Shown here: positions 4,768-20,353 of the stretch, one piece after another
Position numbering within the stretch: the first letter of the stretch is position 1
How the letters are laid out: each line of letters begins with the position of its first letter
Source of the DNA: a virus
Virus record (IMG/VR): IMGVR_UViG_3300020154_000020
Location: 1 to 20,696 of that record
Strand: one strand, 5' to 3'
Length of the DNA stretch: 20,696 nt
Made by a program: the position numbers and the translations under genes
The notes under the pieces: model-generated
Told to the model about the DNA's origin: nothing
What the model saw: only the letters and a program-made list of their open reading frames with translations
The model's database searches: none

Positions 4768-5196
4768 ATGAAAGATGCTATAAAGACCGGTACAATGTGC
4801 CGGAAAACCAGAACAATCGATCTGAAGGCCGCTATTGTCAAATTCCTTGGATGGACCGAAATGGAGTACGCTGAAATGCAATATGAGCACGGTTTGCTGT
4901 ACCTGACGACCTACCTGGAGCAGGATACGGCCTATGCCAACCTGCTTAGCGGATGCAAAATATACTGGAGCTGGTGGAAAAACCATTGGGCCAACCGCGA
5001 CCAGGACTTTTTGCGCATGATGGAAACGGTGGATGCACCGCTTGAATTACGGCGCATTCTATATAGTGATTACCACGATGGCGCGAAGCTGGCCGAGATG
5101 ATTCACCCCAATAGCGTGGTATTGAATGAAAGCTATACCGAAATGATCGGTGCTGTGATTGTATCAGAAAAGAAGAAGGAGGTGAGCCATGGCTAA
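4768..5196 (+). CDS. Early hypothetical protein
   Basis: This 142-aa protein follows the MuB-like gene by 11 bp. It has no motif I can name. It is helical, with an aromatic cluster near residues 65-77 (KIYWSWWKNHW), a feature of several Bacteroidota phage proteins of unknown function. The start follows an A-rich GCTTAAA repeated twice. The last 19 bases contain a perfect 10-base match to the anti-Shine-Dalgarno sequence (AAGGAGGTGA, 5176-5185) that serves the next gene, whose start overlaps this one by 8 bp. The two are therefore coupled. Confidence 0.75.
   Translation: MKDAIKTGTMCRKTRTIDLKAAIVKFLGWTEMEYAEMQYEHGLLYLTTYLEQDTAYANLLSGCKIYWSWWKNHWANRDQDFLRMMETVDAPLELRRILYSDYHDGAKLAEMIHPNSVVLNESYTEMIGAVIVSEKKKEVSHG
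5178..5196 (+). repeat. 19-bp start-site repeat, copy 1 (upstream of the ASCH gene)
   Basis: GGAGGTGAGCCATGGCTAA contains the Shine-Dalgarno and first codons of the ASCH gene, plus the previous stop. It matches 5611-5629 at 17 of 19 positions, and together the two copies bracket the ASCH gene. Confidence 0.85.
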
Positions 5197-5629
5197 AGTA
5201 CTCACCGTAATGCAGCCCTGGGCTGAGCTACTTGTAATCCCTGGAGCGAAAGAATTTGAGACACGCCCGATGCGTATCAACTATCGCGGTACTCTCCTGA
5301 TTCATGCCGGGATGAAGTTCGACTTCGGTGATCTGGAGCTTTGCCACTCCGACAAACGATTCAACAAGTTTATTCCTGATCCTACGAAGCTTGTCACCGG
5401 TGCGATCATCGGTAAGGTCGATATCATAGAATGCCTGCCAGTAGAGGAAGCGTTGAAAGTCATTTCGGCAACAGAGAAAGCCTTTGGTGATTATCGCCCA
5501 GGACGATATGCCTGGATGTGTGCGGGTGCTGTGAAATTCAAAAAACCAATACTTGGAATTCGCGGTCAACAAGGCATCTGGAACTATGACCTGAGTGAAG
5601 CTGAAGAAATGGAGGTGTGCAATGGCTAA
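5189..5629 (+). CDS. ASCH domain protein
   Basis: This 146-aa protein is a single ASCH domain, a PUA-like beta-barrel fold associated with RNA binding and, in some members, ribonuclease activity. Diagnostic stretches are MQPWAELL near the N-terminus (8-15), GAKEFETRPM (19-28), YRGTLLIHAG (32-41), GAIIGKVDI in the middle, and GDYRPGRYAWMC with a C-terminal GIRGQQGIWNYD. Phage-borne ASCH proteins are common accessory genes, and the substrate cannot be deduced. It has an unusually strong Shine-Dalgarno (GGAGGTGA) for a Bacteroidota gene. It is bracketed by near-identical 19-bp direct repeats at 5178-5196 and 5611-5629, each containing a Shine-Dalgarno and start, which suggests it was inserted as a cassette. 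Confidence 0.85.
   Translation: MAKVLTVMQPWAELLVIPGAKEFETRPMRINYRGTLLIHAGMKFDFGDLELCHSDKRFNKFIPDPTKLVTGAIIGKVDIIECLPVEEALKVISATEKAFGDYRPGRYAWMCAGAVKFKKPILGIRGQQGIWNYDLSEAEEMEVCNG
5611..5629 (+). repeat. 19-bp start-site repeat, copy 2 (end of the ASCH gene)
   Basis: GGAGGTGTGCAATGGCTAA holds the Shine-Dalgarno and start of the gene at 5622 and the ASCH stop. It differs from 5178-5196 at two positions. Confidence 0.85.
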
Positions 5630-13266: not shown

Positions 13267-13584
13267 ATGCAACAACGGCGGTCCGTAAAGATTTTCGACG
13301 AGGTATTTCAAACCCTGCCTGCTGACATCGAGCGGAAAAAAGGGCGGTCGGCTCAGCTCCACAACCGCCGCAATGAATGCCTGATCGATCGTTATTACTA
13401 CTACGGCAAGTTTACAGACAAACGCTACCTTGATATCCTGGACGATCTCTCACGCGAATTTTTCCTTTCACCCGTTACAATCCCGGATCTGATTGCTGAT
13501 AACATTTCTATGCTGACAAAACTGAAAGCGCAGCAACCTTCAAAAAGTTATTTCTCAAAGAAGTGGAATCACCTTATGTGGTGA
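13267..13584 (+). CDS. Small possible regulator (Mor/C analogue by position)
   Basis: This 105-aa basic protein stands alone between the early terminator and the convergent morphogenesis operon. A central part, RNECLIDRYYYYGKFTDKRY, is followed by ILDDLSREFFLSPVTIPDLI, a helix-turn-helix-like arrangement. In Mu, the activators Mor and C sit between early and late genes, so a late-gene regulator is a reasonable contextual guess; sequence similarity to Mor is not evident. TAATTTG at about 13229-13235 could be its -7 promoter box. Its stop codon overlaps the 3' end of the leftward gene by 11 bp inside a hairpin. Confidence 0.6.
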   Translation: MQQRRSVKIFDEVFQTLPADIERKKGRSAQLHNRRNECLIDRYYYYGKFTDKRYLDILDDLSREFFLSPVTIPDLIADNISMLTKLKAQQPSKSYFSKKWNHLMW

Positions 13585-13586
13585 TT
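13567..13586. terminator. Hairpin at convergent gene ends
   Basis: AATCACC (13567-13573) and GGTGATT (13580-13586) form a 7-bp stem with loop TTATGT. The stem-loop contains the stop codons of both convergent genes (TGA at 13582-13584 on plus, TAA at 13574-13576 on minus). There is no long T-run, so it may be a weak bidirectional terminator or an RNA 3'-end stabiliser. Confidence 0.45.
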
Positions 13587-14107
13587 TCCCCATCTACTTC
13601 AAGCGCTGGTTTAGGTGCTTTCGTGTACTTCATGGCAGCGCTATGATCTTCGAACGAAGTCGTAAATAAAAGCACCCTAACGCGAAGCCCCGAAGCATCC
13701 TGAGAGCCACTGGCGGAAACCCGCTGCTCTGTTTGACTGTTGGTCCGGTTCAATGGCTGACAGTGATCGTTATGCCATCCCTGTACTTTTTCATAAACCT
13801 TTTGTTCGAGGGTATAGTACTCCAGGGCTTTTTCACGAACGTTGAGCGGTGCCCCGTGATGACTTTGAGCGAATGGAGCGAACCCGAGCCGCACACTGAT
13901 CAGGATGTCGCCGAGTTGTGACAACTCTGAAAGATTTGAGAATTGCGCCTGTGGAAAGTCGATCAATACGCAGGGAAAAGCAACATCTGGCCGATACTCA
14001 AAAACTTCAAGCTGACCAAAGTCCTGGTCTATCCATCTGAGTTCCGGTACCTCGGCTTTAAGAAAGGTTGAGAGGTCAAGAAAAAGCGTTCCAAAGAAAT
14101 TATCCAT
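13574..14107 (-). CDS. Probable tail terminator / head-tail completion protein
   Basis: This 177-aa protein is the last gene of the leftward morphogenesis operon. The N-terminal region (LFLDLSTFLKAEVPELRWID) and the strand-rich middle (PCVLIDFPQAQF, GDILISVRLGFAPF) give the alpha-beta pattern of tail-terminator or neck proteins, which close the tail tube and join it to the head. Those proteins typically follow a gpG/gp10-like gene, as here. The C-terminal LRVRVLLFTTSFEDHSA adds strands. Recognition is by pattern and position only, so another connector class is possible. It lies 11 bp from the upstream gene. Confidence 0.55.
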   Translation of the reverse strand: MDNFFGTLFLDLSTFLKAEVPELRWIDQDFGQLEVFEYRPDVAFPCVLIDFPQAQFSNLSELSQLGDILISVRLGFAPFAQSHHGAPLNVREKALEYYTLEQKVYEKVQGWHNDHCQPLNRTNSQTEQRVSASGSQDASGLRVRVLLFTTSFEDHSAAMKYTKAPKPALEVDGEITT

Positions 14108-14118
14108 AAGTAAGTTGT

Positions 14119-14610
14119 TTATTTAAGTGACTTCATAAATTCTGCCGTAAACACCCTGACTATTCTCGCGTTCAGGTATGGGCTTTCGCCGAGGAACTGC
14201 CTGCGTGGAATACGCTGATCTATTCTCCTGGTATGCGGTTTCACTTCGCTTCCGTTCTTCCTGGTGAAACCCTTCACGGTTTGTATTAATCCGATGCGCA
14301 GGCCTTCGTTGTGTGCCTTGGCATACTTCACATCGGATCCTACAGTAACGGAGGTTTGTGTGAGAGAAACAATACGGATGGACCTCCTTAACCTTCCGGT
14401 ATCTATGAGCAGATTGCGGCCCTTACGGCGATCTTTCTTCCACCCGACCTTACGTATTGCCCACGGCTGAAATGCATGCCCTAAAAAGCCCTGACGCTTG
14501 AAATTATCCAATGCAAAGTTTACCGCCTCGTTACCTGCCAGGAGCGGAAGCCGAGGAAGGACCGATTTGAACTTCTGTTCCAGTAATTTGATACCTTCTG
14601 CGGGTTCCAT
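14119..14610 (-). CDS. Virion morphogenesis protein, Mu gpG / HK97 gp10-like
   Basis: This 163-aa protein shows the signature of the phage virion morphogenesis family. A basic N-terminal region has FQPWAIRK near 47-54, then LLIDTGRLRRSIRI (67-80) and VGSDVKYAKAHNEG (90-103), and RRQFLGESPYL (136-146) near the end. In Mu, gpG acts in tail or head-tail assembly; HK97 gp10-like proteins join tail to connector. It follows the MuF-like gene on the minus strand, separated by 1 nt, the same relative order as Mu F then G. The length is normal for the family. Confidence 0.85.
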   Translation of the reverse strand: MEPAEGIKLLEQKFKSVLPRLPLLAGNEAVNFALDNFKRQGFLGHAFQPWAIRKVGWKKDRRKGRNLLIDTGRLRRSIRIVSLTQTSVTVGSDVKYAKAHNEGLRIGLIQTVKGFTRKNGSEVKPHTRRIDQRIPRRQFLGESPYLNARIVRVFTAEFMKSLK

Positions 14611-14611
14611 T

Positions 14612-15367
14612 TTAGCGGATGAAGTAAGGGTGATCTTCCGGGAATATCAGTCCGCGTTTGCCCAGGTTCGTTTGAAACATCGGCGGTATTTCGCTGGATG
14701 GAATCTTATCTTCCTGGGTAACGGTTCCAGACGGAAGCTGACGGACCGTGCTCCTGCAGTTAAAATGGTTCGGTGGATAGAAGCGATTCCAAAACGGATG
14801 ATCGATGGGAAGAATGGTACCGTCCAAGCCTCTGCAAAGATCGGTGGTCTGACTATCCAGAACAGCATCAAACTGAAGCAATGGAAGTATTCCAGCATCG
14901 GCAGAAATCCTCACCCACTTAGACGCCATTTGAGCACCGTTTACAGCGAGGTCATATTCCGTTTTGAGCCAAGTTTTTAAATACTTGTCGTTGATCAAAC
15001 GCGCTGCGTCTCTGAATTCTTCGAAGCTTTTCAGGTTGCCATTTGCATCCAACAGGGCATCGCTTAATTCGCGCATCTGCGAATAGTTCTTGGCCGAACT
15101 GAATTGCCATACGTTTTCTTTCAGGGCCTTCAGCATGTTGTAATCAGGCGTATCGAAATCGAATGACGCGAGATCACCGCCAAATCCTTTCACCACTCCG
15201 GACCATAACTTGTCGGAGATGTGTTTTGTTACAGCCTCATTGATACTTCCATCAGTACCCTGTAGGTTGTAAATGTTGAGGATCATTTCATCCAAGATGG
15301 CATTGATACCATCAGCAAGATTGATTTCTTCGATGCCATGGCCATGGTCGCAACAGCCCTTATACAA
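14612..15367 (-). CDS. MuF-like minor head protein (start uncertain, possibly frameshift-expressed)
   Basis: This is the minor capsid protein of the Mu F / SPP1 gp7 family, found inside the head near the portal. The C-terminal MuF signature is intact: DSQTTDLCRGLDGTILPIDH (171-190) then PPNHFNCRSTVRQL (198-211), with Cys178, His201 and Cys204. The N-terminal half is helical. The coordinates use the only conventional start in frame, TTG at 15367, with no Shine-Dalgarno. Coding-like sequence (ISALNDQINEL) continues upstream in frame to 15433, with no ATG or GTG before a stop at 15434-15436. That extension joins the portal frame by a -1 shift at TTTTTTC (see 15400-15433), so the usual product may be a portal-MuF fusion. 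Confidence 0.85.
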   Translation of the reverse strand: MYKGCCDHGHGIEEINLADGINAILDEMILNIYNLQGTDGSINEAVTKHISDKLWSGVVKGFGGDLASFDFDTPDYNMLKALKENVWQFSSAKNYSQMRELSDALLDANGNLKSFEEFRDAARLINDKYLKTWLKTEYDLAVNGAQMASKWVRISADAGILPLLQFDAVLDSQTTDLCRGLDGTILPIDHPFWNRFYPPNHFNCRSTVRQLPSGTVTQEDKIPSSEIPPMFQTNLGKRGLIFPEDHPYFIR

Positions 15368-15399
15368 TTCGTTGATCTGATCATTAAGCGCGGATATCT

Positions 15400-15433
15400 C
15401 CAGCCCCCTTATCAGGGGGCCGGGTCGAAAAAA
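15400..15433 (-). promoter_or_regulatory. Candidate -1 programmed ribosomal frameshift signal
   Basis: Read on the minus strand: slippery heptamer T-TTT-TTC (15433 to 15427), whose zero-frame codons TTT and TTC encode portal Phe443-Phe444. A spacer GAC follows, then a 9-bp stem CCGGCCCCC (15423 to 15415) pairing with GGGGGCTGG (15408 to 15400, one G-U). The loop TGATAA (15414 to 15409) holds the portal stop plus a second in-frame stop. If only the inner 6 bp pair, the spacer is 6 nt. After a -1 slip, translation reads CGA CCC GGC CCC CTG and runs straight into MuF. These are the three elements of a classical -1 site. One missing T in the sequence would look the same. Confidence 0.6.
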
Positions 15434-16758
15434 TCAGCAAGCAATGTTCGGAGCCTTACCAGGGCATTGAGATTTTTTACCGGCTTCTTAACCGGAGGCT
15501 TTTTCGCGATCGGAGGCTTACCGGGTTTGGGCGGTGTGTTCTCATCATCAAGCCCGTTCCTCATTGCCTTGTCGGCTTCCATCTGCGCTTTCAGCTCGTC
15601 GTAATTGTCGGGCTTTGGTATGCCATAGGTTTCATACCAATAGTCGTCAGCGATCGGAACCTTTGAAGAAACCTTGATATCGATCTCGACCTTTGTCTTT
15701 AACTCCTCCAGGTTGGTTTCAATCTCGTATTCAAAATACCCGCCGTCTACAACGGGTAAACCATAGCTTTTCAGGATAGTCGTGAATTCGTCGCTGTTCA
15801 GGTCGTCGATAACATCGAACATGTCGCTTTCGGTTTTTGCGACTTGTTGCTTTCCATGTTCTTTGCTTTGCGCGTAACCACTGCTGGAGCTGCTCTTCGT
15901 AGTTTCGGTGTTACCCAATACCACGATCGACATTTCTTCATTGCAGACGCCATAGAACTTTTCCTGCAGCTCACCCGTTCCATTGCTCTGCTTGCCGTCC
16001 TTCATATCGAACTGAGCCTGCTTCGGAATCATCATCGTGAGGCTACTTCCAGATTCATCAAGCACCTTGCGCAGTTCTGTGCGTGTCTTCTGATCGTACA
16101 CATCGTAGTAGATGATACGAACCGGTTGCCCGAATATCTCGATGTATTGCGCCCAGTCGGCCATGTTGCCGCGCTTCCAGATTGCATAAAACGAGCACTT
16201 CAAAAGATATCCTAAATCCTTTTCGTCACCCAGAATCCAGACGTTTGAAACGCCATCGTAACTGGTTCCTTCCTCGCCATACTGATCGATTGAAATAGTT
16301 TTCTTGTGCGGCTTAATGTGCTTGCGCGGCAGTTCCTTGAACTTCATTTTCGGTCCGGGAATGAACTCCAGACCGGATAGGCCCCACGCCTTTGTTTCCA
16401 TGATCTTCTTGATCACAGCGCGGAATACTTTGCTCTTAATGGTTTTGTCCATCAAGTCAACTTTCTTTCCACCTGAATCCTTGTAGATAAGCTTTTTATT
16501 CAGGATGGAATCAGCACGCTTTTCAATGATACCGGTAAGGTGACCGTCAATCAAAACATCGTCGTACAAATCGTATAGCCTTACACGTTGAGGGTAATGA
16601 ATACTCTCGGCCGATTGTAAAGCCATTTTGAAATCACCAATATCTTTTTGGCTACGGTCTGCACTCATGATGTTCAGTTCCTGAACGATCAATGGAGCGT
16701 TTTTAGGTTCTTCCGTTTTGGTTACGGCACCTTTCTTAGTCTTTCTTCGTGAGGCCAT
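15412..16758 (-). CDS. DUF935 portal protein (Mu gp29-like)
   Basis: This 448-aa protein forms the dodecameric ring through which DNA enters the head and to which the tail joins. It is recognised as the DUF935/Mu gp29 type by its length and by DWAQYIEIFGQPVRIIYYD (201-219). Helical stretches around 45-90 (DLYDDVLIDGHLTGIIEKRA) and the C-terminal PIADDYWYETYGIPKP also fit. The C-terminus is a Pro/Lys-rich tail (about 405-430) ending FFDPAP. The gene begins 2 bp after the gp36-like gene. Its 3' end carries the slippery T-run and hairpin described at 15400-15433, and the stop TGA is followed at once by an in-frame TAA. Confidence 0.93.
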   Translation of the reverse strand: MASRRKTKKGAVTKTEEPKNAPLIVQELNIMSADRSQKDIGDFKMALQSAESIHYPQRVRLYDLYDDVLIDGHLTGIIEKRADSILNKKLIYKDSGGKKVDLMDKTIKSKVFRAVIKKIMETKAWGLSGLEFIPGPKMKFKELPRKHIKPHKKTISIDQYGEEGTSYDGVSNVWILGDEKDLGYLLKCSFYAIWKRGNMADWAQYIEIFGQPVRIIYYDVYDQKTRTELRKVLDESGSSLTMMIPKQAQFDMKDGKQSNGTGELQEKFYGVCNEEMSIVVLGNTETTKSSSSSGYAQSKEHGKQQVAKTESDMFDVIDDLNSDEFTTILKSYGLPVVDGGYFEYEIETNLEELKTKVEIDIKVSSKVPIADDYWYETYGIPKPDNYDELKAQMEADKAMRNGLDDENTPPKPGKPPIAKKPPVKKPVKNLNALVRLRTLLADFFDPAP

Positions 16759-16760
16759 TT

Positions 16761-17192
16761 TTAAAAATGCTGTTTGCGTTTGCGATTAGAATTCCACTGT
16801 ACTCCTGAGCTTTCGTCAACATCCGTATCAGGATTGTCGGTTTTGTAAGGCCATCCATCCGGATCAGCCTGACCCTTCATGATCTTGTCGAGAAACTTTA
16901 AAGCGTCCTGATACATTGTTCGGAACAATTCAAGGTTTACGTTCGGGTTGGAAAGTTTCACCAAGTGCCAGCATGCGATATCGGCGATGAGGCTTTTAAG
17001 ATGTTCACGATCAAAACCCGGATCCTCCTCACCAAAGAGTATAGTAAGGTCAAATCTGCTGAGGTAGCTTTTTGCCTCGGATACAGCGTTTGCAATTGCC
17101 CTGGTAACTAGATCGTCATTTTCCCTTGTGATGGAATTGATGACTTCGGCATATAAGTGCGACTCAAGGTCGGCTTTGGTTAGAAATGGCAT
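16761..17192 (-). CDS. DUF1320-type (Mu gp36-like) head-tail connector protein
   Basis: This 143-aa protein matches the gp36-like family by its start FLTKADLESHLYAEVINSIT, the helix AIANAVSEAKSYLSRFDLTI (52-71), and the middle LIADIACWHLVKLSNPNVNL. These helical proteins are thought to work in head completion or the neck. The C-terminal 35 residues are polar and probably disordered (NPDTDVDESSGVQW). In Mu, gp36 follows the major capsid gene; here it lies between terminase and portal, a rearranged order. It is 2 bp from each neighbour. Confidence 0.75.
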   Translation of the reverse strand: MPFLTKADLESHLYAEVINSITRENDDLVTRAIANAVSEAKSYLSRFDLTILFGEEDPGFDREHLKSLIADIACWHLVKLSNPNVNLELFRTMYQDALKFLDKIMKGQADPDGWPYKTDNPDTDVDESSGVQWNSNRKRKQHF

Positions 17193-17194
17193 GG

Positions 17195-18739
17195 TTAAAA
17201 TCGTTTGGCGTTTGGCTTGCGTTTCATGAAGTGTAATCCATTGTCAGTGGCAATGGCGACTTTGTTCTTGGCAATGTGTACACCGCCCTCCACTGAGTCA
17301 GGTCCGTCCATGGTTCGGCTGTTCGGGCTTACTGATTTGAATTGCGTTTCCATCCGCTTCATGTGCGGATTATCCTTCTCATCGATATTGAAGACCAGGA
17401 GACCCATCCGGTTTAATGGTTCAAGCGTTCCCTCGATACGGAAGTATTTGTCTGGCTTTGCGCGATCGTCCGGAGTAACAGGAAGGATGTCGTTTCGGCG
17501 TTCGCCTTCCGCGAAAATCAACGGCAAAAGAACCTGCTGGTAAAAGGGATCCTGCAAGGTGTTGTTTTCGATGTAGCAGTATAGCTGCGTTCTTTCTTTC
17601 ACAAAGTCGCGCCCTGCATACATCCAGTCGATGAACTTTGCGTTCGTGGTAACGTCGACAAAACACTTGTAAACGTAGAACGTCAAATCTTTGAAGCCGA
17701 TTATTGAAACTGCTTTGCAACTGTTTGTTGCCTTAGACCTGGCAGTCGGTTTATCCTTGTTAGACGGTGATGGATCGGCGTACATGATCACAAAAGGAAG
17801 CTCACTCAATGGCGGACATTTGCCATAGGTGATTTCTTTGAATGCCTTACCCTCACTGATCGGATTGTTGAAATACTCGCCTTGGGCCGACTCGTATGAC
17901 ATTAAACGAAGCATATCATCGATATCAGCTTCGCTGTTCTTCTGAGGCCAAGTGCTTTTTCCGTACTCATCCCGAATGTTTACTGTCTCTTCATCGGTAG
18001 CATATTCACTGAACAGGCTTGTACAGCTGTATTCCGCGAAAAGGTTGTTGTCAAACGCGATTCTGTAATCCGAACTTATATCTACTGTTGGAAGTACGGC
18101 CTTTTGAATCCATTTGAATCGCTGGAATACACGCTCGGGATTTCTACACACTTCATCATCATCCACATCGTCAAAAACAATGATAGTTATACGTAATTCT
18201 TCCAATCTGGAGCCGCGGGGATTCTGGTCAGCACCAACAGCCCTAAACGCACAGCCACCACGAGTTACGAACTCGTATTCGGACCAACTTCCCGGTTTTT
18301 CCTGAACTCCATAATCGTTTATTAAGCGCTGATTAGCCTCAAGGTTTGCCCTATATGGTTTAAGAAGTCTGACTGCATTGTCTTCCGACTTACTGATCAT
18401 AAGCATGTTTGTCTTAAACTTTTTTGCGAAAGTCAAGTAGAAGATTTCAAACATTCTGCGGGTCGACTTCGATAACCCACGCGCCCATTTACGACTTTGA
18501 GCAATGCGCCGAGTGTTTATAAAACGATTCGCACTATGCTTGTGGAATTCAGCAGGTTCAGCAAATGAATACTTCGGGAAGTAGTATTTAAACCATTCCT
18601 CCGGATCAGCTTCAAGGCGTTTAATCCGTTTGGCTTTTTCTTCTTCGCTCTCGTTGATATCAACAGGCGTACTATTCCTGATGCTCTCAAGAAAGTCCTC
18701 CCATTTTAACAACGCTTGTTTGTCGGTCTGCTCTATCAT
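17195..18739 (-). CDS. Terminase large subunit (Mu gp28-like)
   Basis: This 514-aa protein is the ATP-driven motor and nuclease that packages phage DNA. The start at 18739 is used because it overlaps the preceding stop as ATGA; an upstream TTG at 18772 would add 11 residues. A viral-type Walker A is ARGLSKST (86-93, Lys91). Walker B is IIVFDDVDDDE (186-196, Asp190-Asp191). The nuclease domain begins near IMYADPSPSNKD (318-329), with Asp322 a likely metal ligand. In Mu-like phages the motor cuts beside an end site and packs the phage plus flanking host DNA. The operon context (small terminase, gp36, portal) is consistent. Confidence 0.92.
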   Translation of the reverse strand: MIEQTDKQALLKWEDFLESIRNSTPVDINESEEEKAKRIKRLEADPEEWFKYYFPKYSFAEPAEFHKHSANRFINTRRIAQSRKWARGLSKSTRRMFEIFYLTFAKKFKTNMLMISKSEDNAVRLLKPYRANLEANQRLINDYGVQEKPGSWSEYEFVTRGGCAFRAVGADQNPRGSRLEELRITIIVFDDVDDDEVCRNPERVFQRFKWIQKAVLPTVDISSDYRIAFDNNLFAEYSCTSLFSEYATDEETVNIRDEYGKSTWPQKNSEADIDDMLRLMSYESAQGEYFNNPISEGKAFKEITYGKCPPLSELPFVIMYADPSPSNKDKPTARSKATNSCKAVSIIGFKDLTFYVYKCFVDVTTNAKFIDWMYAGRDFVKERTQLYCYIENNTLQDPFYQQVLLPLIFAEGERRNDILPVTPDDRAKPDKYFRIEGTLEPLNRMGLLVFNIDEKDNPHMKRMETQFKSVSPNSRTMDGPDSVEGGVHIAKNKVAIATDNGLHFMKRKPNAKRF

Positions 18740-19191
18740 TTTTTGATACTTACCTGAATGAATGAGTTCCAAAGATCTGCGACCTCAATTACCTGTTCTG
18801 TTGTACCTACTTTTTGCAGGAACTTGATGAAGCGCATTCCGCTTTCAACCAAATCCGCAATACCCAAATCAGTTTCGAGGTTTCGAATTGCAGCGGTGTA
18901 TTTGATCATGATGTCGGCTTGTTTGGAATCGCCGTGGCCGAGCTTTGCTTCATCAATTGCCTTATTCAGGTTTTCAAGATGTTGATAGTATTTGTTTATC
19001 AACTCCTCCTTTGACAACAACAGGCGATTTCGCAACATCTTCCAGTTGCCTTCATTCACCCACTTACTCATTGTTTTTTCACTCACGCCAACGCGCTTTG
19101 CAATAACCTTTTGATCAAGCTGCTCTCGTGTAAAAAGAATCTTAGCGAGATACTGCTTGTCAGCAATAGAAGTCTTCGTGTTTGCCATCAT
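18736..19191 (-). CDS. Small terminase subunit (Mu gp27-like) with HTH
   Basis: This 151-aa protein is the first gene of the leftward operon. An N-terminal helix-turn-helix (about 12-52) is clear: DQKVIAKRVGVSEKTMSKWV followed by NEGNWKMLRNRLLLS. The rest is helical (YYQHLENLNKAIDEAKLG, LETDLGIADLVESGMRFIKF), suiting oligomerisation. Small terminases recognise the packaging site and load the large subunit, and Mu gp27 holds this position before gp28. The start may be either of two adjacent ATGs (19191 or 19188). Its stop overlaps the large-subunit start by 4 bp. Confidence 0.8.
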   Translation of the reverse strand: MMANTKTSIADKQYLAKILFTREQLDQKVIAKRVGVSEKTMSKWVNEGNWKMLRNRLLLSKEELINKYYQHLENLNKAIDEAKLGHGDSKQADIMIKYTAAIRNLETDLGIADLVESGMRFIKFLQKVGTTEQVIEVADLWNSFIQVSIKK

Positions 19192-19366
19192 GCAAAAATG
19201 CCTATGAAATGGGCCTTATGAGAAATTGAAAATGTATGATGCCGAATAGAAGAAGCATGATGCCGAGTATGTGCAGCATGATAAAAAGCCGGTTTGTAAA
19301 AGGGCCTCTTCACAGTTCATTTTTGTCTCCACGAAAACGCAAAACGAAAATGTTTTAATCGCGAAA
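19192..19366. promoter_or_regulatory. Divergent late promoter region with 21-bp-spaced repeats
   Basis: This 175-bp gap separates the leftward terminase-portal operon from the rightward protease-capsid operon, so both late promoters should be here. ATGATGCCGA occurs at 19236-19245 and 19257-19266, and a shortened ATGAT at 19278-19282, each 21 bp apart. The first two units also share a TA after the core and end AGC. Repeats every two helical turns place binding sites on one DNA face, a usual layout for an activator or repressor array. No confident -7/-33 pair is identified. Confidence 0.55.
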
Positions 19367-20353
19367 ATGGAGAAGTTCAAAAAGATCGATAAGCCCTTTC
19401 TACTATCTGACAGCAGTGTGAACAGCTACGGTTTCAGATTACTCACCGAAGGTTATCTGAAGGATGAGTATCAAAAGAACCCTATCGGTTTTCACATGCA
19501 TGGCAGAGACGCGGGAGTTCTTGTTAAATGGGACGATCTCACAGTTGACGGAGACAAAGTTTTTGGAAAGCCTGTTATCAACATGAGCAATTCACGTGCT
19601 CAACAGACCATTGATGAAATTGAAAACGGTTTTTTGAACGCCGCATCAATGGGGCACTTCGTTGTTCTCGAATTTTCTGACGACCCCGCCCTAAAGCTTC
19701 CGAATCAGACAGGCCCTACCGTAACTAAGTGGTTCAACCGTGAATGCAGTCTTGTTGACATTCCAGGAAACTTCAATGCCCTGGCTCTTTTCGATAAGGA
19801 TGAAAACCCCATCAACCTCGCCGATTTCACAAAACCAAAAATTGAAAAAAATAGTATGAAGCAAATCTTCTTTACTGCCGCGCAGATCGCGGCCATGAAT
19901 CTCAAGGCTGACGCTGAAGACAGCGCAGTAAATGTAGCCTTCAATAATCTGGTAGCTAAGGCAGCCGAGGCGGACGGTCTCAAGACCAAAAACAACGAGC
20001 TCACCACAGAGATTTCCAATCTCAAAGCTGAAGCTGAAACAAAAGAAATCTCCGGCCTTACACAGGCTGCCTTAGCGGCTGGGAAAGTGACGAAGGAAGT
20101 AGCTGATCAACTTGCAACTGCCTACAAAGGAAACGCAACAGGTTTAAAGAATTTGATTGACGCAATGCCTGTGCACAAATCAATTGCCGATTCAATCGAC
20201 AAAGGAAAAGGTGGTAACGACAAGTTCGCTGCACTGATGGCGAAATCATGGGACGACCTTTTCGCTTCAGGTGAAACAGAAGTGTTGAGAAAAGGCGCTC
20301 CTGATCTGTACAAGCAAAAGTTCAAAGAAGAGTTTGGTACCGATCCAAAATAG
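19367..20353 (+). CDS. Prohead protease fused to scaffold (Mu gpI/Z-like)
   Basis: This 328-aa protein combines an N-terminal prohead protease domain (about 1-155) with a scaffold-like helical part (about 165-290) and a conserved-looking C-terminal tail (WDDLFASGETEVLRKGAPDL). In the protease domain, GFHMHGRDAG (41-50), NGFLNAASMGHFVVLEF (87-103) and ECSLVDIPGNFNALAL (126-141) match the pattern of phage maturation proteases; His43 or His45 with Ser94 or Ser128 are candidate catalytic residues. ATG 19367 is preferred to a GTG at 19271, which lies in the repeat array and adds a non-conserved N-terminus. An internal in-frame ATG (19856, MKQIFFTAAQ) after an A-rich leader could give free scaffold. 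Confidence 0.88.
   Translation: MEKFKKIDKPFLLSDSSVNSYGFRLLTEGYLKDEYQKNPIGFHMHGRDAGVLVKWDDLTVDGDKVFGKPVINMSNSRAQQTIDEIENGFLNAASMGHFVVLEFSDDPALKLPNQTGPTVTKWFNRECSLVDIPGNFNALALFDKDENPINLADFTKPKIEKNSMKQIFFTAAQIAAMNLKADAEDSAVNVAFNNLVAKAAEADGLKTKNNELTTEISNLKAEAETKEISGLTQAALAAGKVTKEVADQLATAYKGNATGLKNLIDAMPVHKSIADSIDKGKGGNDKFAALMAKSWDDLFASGETEVLRKGAPDLYKQKFKEEFGTDPK

Follow-up and report, generated by a model that had tools for sequence, protein, structure and literature searches.

The Portal/MuF Junction

The stretch of DNA considered here, IMG/VR record IMGVR_UViG_3300020154_000020 (20,696 nucleotides (nt); "the window" denotes this whole stretch), is a 20.7-kb record of a Mu-type transposable phage, with profile matches to a Mu transposase C-domain, an AAA ATPase and a Mu-like protease. 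The minus strand carries the packaging genes, which run terminase, gp36-like, portal (PF06074), MuF (PF04233) and gpG-like, and the element in question is the junction at which the portal gene ends and the MuF frame takes over. The portal aligns with the complete PF06074 profile (1-336 of 336; 192.5 bits for a cut-off of 23.9) and belongs to the Mu-type portals; its last ~50 amino acids (aa) form a Pro/Lys-rich linker that ends in LADFFDPAP. Directly after it, the MuF protein scores 46.4 bits against PF04233 (cut-off 29.6), which makes it a member of the MuF family, here without a C-terminal cargo domain. The features of the junction are the following:

15412 to 16758, minus strand: portal gene (Portal_Mu, PF06074), zero frame, 448 aa (Pfam E 1.6e-56; open reading frame, ORF)
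15427 to 15433, minus strand: slippery heptamer T_TTT_TTC, portal frame (sequence; same in-frame heptamer in relatives)
15421 to 15426, minus strand: 6-nt spacer GACCCG from the heptamer to the conserved stem core (offset exactly +6 in the stems of relatives)
15400 to 15423, minus strand: putative stimulatory hairpin, 5' arm 15423-15414, loop GATA 15413-15410, 3' arm 15409-15400 (fold, best-stem scan, covariation)
15409 to 15414, minus strand: tandem zero-frame stops TGA TAA, end of the short portal, inside the hairpin (sequence)
14612 to 15433, minus strand: MuF frame (PF04233), open from the slip site and reached by a -1 slip (translation; Pfam E 7.5e-12; start-codon scan)
15365 to 15367, minus strand: TTG, first possible bacterial start in the MuF frame (start-codon scan; position not conserved in relatives)

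Read along the minus strand, the portal gene ends with CTT GCT GAT TTT TTC GAC CCG GCC CCC TGA TAA. As the preliminary description had recognised, this end contains T_TTT_TTC, a zero-frame heptamer of the X_XXY_YYZ form (15433-15427), and a -1 slip on it enters the MuF frame exactly. The zero frame terminates at the TGA 12 nt past the heptamer, while the -1 frame, whose upstream stop is the TGA at 15436-15434, stays open to 14612 and encodes MuF. The predicted slip product, ...LADFFRPGPLIRGLE..., would count 444 + 271 = 715 aa, a translation that agrees with the size of about 715 aa first proposed. The stable RNA structure looked for 5-9 nt after the heptamer is present as a 10-bp hairpin of 24 nt (CCGGCCCCCT/AGGGGGCTGG, GATA loop), with TGA TAA running across the loop in the RNA fold; the 76-nt stretch containing it has a minimum free energy of -26 kcal/mol (z-score -2.9), equally low in 1 of 200 shuffles. 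The earlier account of a GC-rich stem carrying tandem stops in its loop thus holds, but its placement of the stem 3 nt past the heptamer does not: the core kept in relatives, GCCCCCT (15420-15414)/AGGGGGC (15409-15403), starts exactly 6 nt past it.

From these features and the comparisons below, the site is very probably a programmed -1 ribosomal frameshift that would give two products, a plain portal and a portal-linker-MuF fusion. The original proposal of such a frameshift joining a Mu-type portal to MuF is strongly backed by the conserved heptamer, spacing and stem, by covariation, by alternative heptamers at the same junction and by a protein-blind search.

Conservation of the Slip Signal

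Relatives were collected by MuF homology from IMG/VR, GTDB genomes and INPHARED, yielding 183 loci (184 classified with the window). At 112 of the 184, MuF is in the -1 frame of the portal and T_TTT_TTC stands in the portal frame inside the overlap (the T class); a further 31 also overlap at -1 but have a different heptamer or lack one, MuF stands in a +1 relation in 16, mostly with a nearby ATG, and 11 are single-ORF fusions, the remainder being contig edges or other cases. Members of the T class are Hankyphage p00 and its kin (L012, L018, L022), Elizabethkingia phage TCUEAP3 (L014) and prophages of Chryseosolibacter, Riemerella, Prevotella, Bacteroides and Alistipes; the signal hence covers the Hankyphage family, which is widespread in Bacteroides.

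Conservation of the heptamer, the hairpin and the missing start, the check first suggested for this junction, is borne out for the first two and in part for the third, the start codons being treated in the next section. An in-frame T_TTT_TTC lies inside the overlap at 92 of 121 unique -1-overlap junctions, compared with a mean of 1.9 under a codon-shuffle null and 6.6 under a synonymous-redraw null; in the portal body outside the overlap, TTTTTTC occurs 6 times in 148 kb, once in frame. All 92 junctions have exactly six T followed by C in the same frame, at MuF identities down to ~27%. The codon before Phe-Phe varies (GAT, CGT, GGT, CCT, AGT, AAT, TCT and others) yet its last base is T, and Phe-Phe itself is spelled TTT TTC. 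This constancy bears on the idea that a T lost by sequencing error, or in a decayed prophage, has split a single portal-MuF gene, as seven T in corrected reads would have indicated. Single-ORF fusions do occur in relatives and one additional base would join the frames here; however, T6C recurs at these 92 unique junctions from isolates, genomes and metagenomes, and both frames are intact. A lost T is not credible, its probability being negligible, and an assembly error is ruled out by the same conservation.

The downstream stem is equally constrained. The homology search supplied 77 non-redundant T-class junctions. In 70 of them a stem of 6 bp or more begins at exactly +6, against 5.1 in shuffles, and the counts drop on either side of this offset. 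Compensatory changes are found at stem pairs 3, 5 and 6; pair 6 is G-C in 37 cases, T-A in 15, C-G in 9, A-T in 6 and T-G in 3, paired in 70 of 76 against 33 when permuted. The stem partner was picked to maximise pairing, which biases these covariation counts towards structure; the +6 shuffle test is free of this bias. In L001, the closest relative (66% MuF identity), TTTTTTCGACCCGGCCCCC and AGGGGGCT are retained although the loop has lengthened from 4 to 19 nt, and the stem GCCCGCT/AGCGGGC of L049 is a compensated change.

The same motif can be retrieved blind to the proteins. The pattern TTTTTTC-N6-GCCCC-N4..24-GGGGC was run over IMG/VR viral contigs, and the matches were then typed with hidden Markov models trained on portal and MuF. 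Among the 120 matches listed, the zero frame is that of a portal in 106: MuF accompanies it at -1 in 84, and 22 have the portal only. With this pattern, 5 of 10 matches in 395 Bacteroidota genomes are portal/MuF junctions (the other 5 look random), and none of 6 matches in 299 Bacillota genomes lies at a portal/MuF junction. Because most viral matches and half of the Bacteroidota matches fall there, and none in Bacillota, the TTTTTTC-N6-stem motif is largely a signature of the portal/MuF junction in Bacteroidota phages. Sequence comparison establishes the signal and its conservation, together with the frame logic, the phylum bias and the inverted version described further below.

Start Codons, A-Runs and Other Heptamers

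Between its upstream stop and the TTG at 15367 the MuF frame of the window has no ATG or GTG, as stated from the outset; the scan finds this TTG as the first ATG, GTG or TTG, and the first ATG lies ~147 nt into the open frame. At 37 of 75 T-class junctions the first ATG or GTG comes more than 100 nt past the heptamer.

Two groups of relatives weigh against frameshifting as the sole explanation: those with a start codon close to the portal stop and those with A-runs at the junction. An ATG or GTG lies within 25 nt of the portal stop in 26 of 75 T-class relatives (an ATG in 12 of 75), and such phages may also make a separate MuF. A rival view holds that MuF is simply a separately translated protein, started by coupled re-initiation at TTG 15367 or at a non-standard codon after the portal stop, with heptamer and hairpin incidental. 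Portal and MuF are indeed separate genes with an ATG in phage Mu, L003, L016, L021 and others. In Hankyphages an ATG overlaps the portal stop, the GenBank records of Hankyphage p00 annotate portal and MuF as two separate genes, and in Hankyphage jmh43 the stretch FFRESPGERRGSFR precedes the start annotated for MuF. Homologues with a normal ATG for MuF, named beforehand as grounds for rejecting a frameshift, therefore exist, yet they do not serve as a refutation, since the Hankyphages keep heptamer and hairpin, while L003, L016, L021 and phage Mu, the true separate-gene cases, are without a slip signal. The position of the TTG varies (66 nt in the window and 81 nt in the closest relative), half of the T-class junctions lack an ATG or GTG for 100 nt, and the MuF-frame residues FFR are conserved in relatives although they lie upstream of any start. 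Separate translation would moreover leave the heptamer, the 6-nt spacing, the covariation and the inverted class unexplained, and it is very improbable as an account of the window.

A-runs stand at the junction in ~10 lineages, mostly without a convincing stem; runs of A9-A10, again mostly stemless, are seen in L005, L006, L013, L063, L096, L136 and L178. Such junctions (e.g., L005, L013, L063) could reflect transcriptional slippage, in which a T or A run gives rise to mixed messenger RNAs (mRNAs), a minority of which yields the fusion by normal translation. Slippage of this kind is plausible at the A9-A10 junctions of L005, L006, L013, L063 and L136, and it is suggested by the sister loci L032 and L038, which both have an A-run with MuF in a +1 relation in the former and a -1 relation in the latter. 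The main class, however, has six T only, a length at which slippage is usually weak, and it combines a fixed codon phase with a base-paired stem downstream at a distance typical of ribosomes; the A_AAT_TTY variant described next is not a homopolymer at all. For the window, transcriptional slippage has an even slimmer chance of being correct than separate translation.

Programmed ribosomal frameshifting also accommodates junctions with another heptamer. In a clade with Dysgonomonas, Tannerella and Flavobacterium members, A_AAT_TTT or A_AAT_TTC lies exactly 10 nt before the portal stop, followed in most members by the 6 nt CAGTAA, AAGTAA or similar (NNNTAA) and then by a different, covarying stem, GGGAACA/TGTTCCC, GGAAACAACC/GGTTGTTTCC or GGAAGCAACC/GGTTGCTTCC. 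In Pontibacter (L051), A_AAA_AAG is combined with the stem GCCACTGTAA/TTACAGTGGC. L002, L042 and L140 have no heptamer at the junction and a start codon at the portal stop.

The Inverted Class

Among the 22 portal-only matches listed by the protein-blind search, 17 contain a single zero-frame ORF that runs from the portal through the signal and on for 165-483 residues, and it is the -1 frame that stops, 19-30 codons past the signal; L188 is a truncated further case. A full zero-frame ORF, an early -1 stop and a retained signal, the dnaX-like arrangement, thus occur together in relatives, while the window does not belong to this inverted class. The inverted pattern matches lie among L191-L304. 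In the Porphyromonas gingivalis phage L015 (BK068094.1, Porphyromonas phage013a), which is inverted with its slip site at 2859-2865 of the locus, the portal is annotated as one ~854-codon gene, and L050 (Tannerella) is of the same type. Three Hymenobacter loci (L043, L046, L048) have A_AAT_TTT, an immediate -1 stop, a strong stem (e.g., GCCCGTGGCGC/GCGCCACGGGC) and an intact portal-MuF ORF. In this class, normal decoding would produce the fusion, and a -1 slip would yield a short-tailed portal.

The inverted T class requires 6 changes on the portal tree, at least 5 of them forced by well-supported branches, so the direction has switched repeatedly. In nine inverted loci the -1 tails have W(K/Q/R)SPH in common; identity over those seven codons is 0.64 in the -1 frame and 0.36 in the zero frame, a difference inflated by the choice of the motif by eye before measuring, and the third reading in this comparison (0.35) is the zero frame one codon earlier and not an independent control. 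For a second inverted subgroup the -1 frame reaches an identity of 0.46, compared with 0.30 for the zero frame and 0.23 for the true third frame. With conservation higher along the -1 tail than in the zero frame, these values are evidence for translation of the -1 frame in the inverted class. That the same signal works in reverse in some relatives suggests that having both portal forms is what is selected. The class also permits a rare test of whether evolution conserves the ratio rather than the reading direction.

Proposed Mechanism

Ribosomes nearing the end of the portal gene would encounter T_TTT_TTC while the GC hairpin, 6 nt further on, stands at the mRNA entry. Some of them would slip back by one base, re-pair and read on in the MuF frame, producing the portal-linker-MuF protein, and the remaining ribosomes would stop at TGA TAA and release the plain portal. 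Bacteroidota ribosomes rarely use Shine-Dalgarno pairing, which fits a signal dependent on a downstream stem. The two forms would be built together into the 12-subunit portal ring, where a fraction of the chains would carry MuF on the flexible Pro/Lys-rich linker; MuF, together with toxin-like C-terminal cargo in many relatives, would in this way be brought covalently to the capsid in a ratio set by an RNA signal, a covalent route to stoichiometry. In an AlphaFold model of the natural fusion L302 (mean predicted local distance difference test score 56, shallow alignment), the portal and MuF cores are modelled and the joining region, 381-518, is of very low confidence, which is weakly consistent with a flexible linker.

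We infer a useful rate of slippage, the presence of the fusion in the virion and control of its copy number by the signal. The preliminary description assigned MuF to a minority of portal subunits; this too was deduced, and the shifted share may not be small in every phage, because in the inverted class default decoding gives the fusion and slipping the short portal. The arrangement offers a possible answer to how a few copies of an internal protein are obtained in a 12-fold ring, namely that some subunits are made pre-fused. More broadly, it is likely that in Bacteroidota tailed phages the portal/MuF frameshift module keeps a two-product output under selection, has flipped several times between slips that make and slips that prevent the fusion, has been built anew on at least two slip-and-stem architectures that are unrelated, and would set the number of portal subunits per virion that bear MuF and its toxin-like cargo.

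The MuF C-termini past the slip site include Gln_amidase (a papain-fold deamidase), CdiA_C or LPD3 domains in Hankyphage (L012:3001-4479), L066, L006, L099 and L023. The frameshift signal would also set the dose of these cargo domains (CdiA_C, papain-fold deamidase, LPD3), proteins for which delivery at infection has been proposed (Jamet 2017, PMC5576092; PMC6316719). Annotation pipelines will overlook the fusion and place the MuF start wrongly.

Gene Context of the Window

The window is split by strand: the packaging module, from terminase to gpG, occupies 13574-19191 on the minus strand, and the plus strand carries the protease and early genes (compare 19271-20353). In the record of Hankyphage p00, too, the packaging genes are found on the minus strand. 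A 146-aa ORF at 5189-5629, placed between the transposition and structural modules, matches phrog_3193, a PHROG of unknown function. The region 14612-16758 matches phrog_35074 and phrog_220, whose profiles extend over portal and MuF together; fused as well as separate proteins are thus pooled in these families.

Comparison with Known Systems

The mechanism itself is classical; what is new is the target, portal/MuF, and a module that switches direction. No earlier description of a portal/MuF frameshift was found in the literature searched, most subscription papers being outside its coverage, so novelty is not proven. In the parts covered, a recoding review makes no mention of the portal (PMC5009743). 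Nor does the PRFect paper, in which MuF comes up solely as a false positive beside VIP2 fusions (PMC10885494).

In SPP1, the MuF protein gp7 is bound to the portal gp6 at 1-2 copies per capsid (PMC5576092; PMC6316719), but as separate genes with non-covalent binding, and no frameshift is described for the pair. A covalent portal-MuF protein is known from Microbacterium phage clusters EA3 and EB, where, unlike in the window, the fusions are described as plain single genes and no frameshift is described for them (PMC7302621). For the inverted class only, a parallel exists in tau/gamma of Escherichia coli dnaX, a cellular polymerase gene. As background to this parallel, dnaX yields the full-length product by default and the short one by a -1 slip, with a slip site and stimulators unlike those of the inverted class.

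By comparison, the gpG/gpGT tail chaperone of lambda resembles the window in its phage structural operon, its -1 heptamer slip near the gene end and its extended protein made as a minority. Tail chaperones are not in the virion. For 17.5/17.5* of SPP1, a -1 slip has been predicted at UUUUUUC, the same heptamer as in the window (PMC6316719); in lambda and SPP1 alike, the genes concerned are others than portal and MuF. Closer in outcome are the major capsid proteins of Lactobacillus phage A2 and T3 and the case of Listeria PSA, where a frameshift gives two forms of a virion protein with a common N-terminus, the protein extended being that of the capsid or tail tube (PMC5009743). With the junction described here, the portal vertex would join the phage structures built with a recoded subunit.
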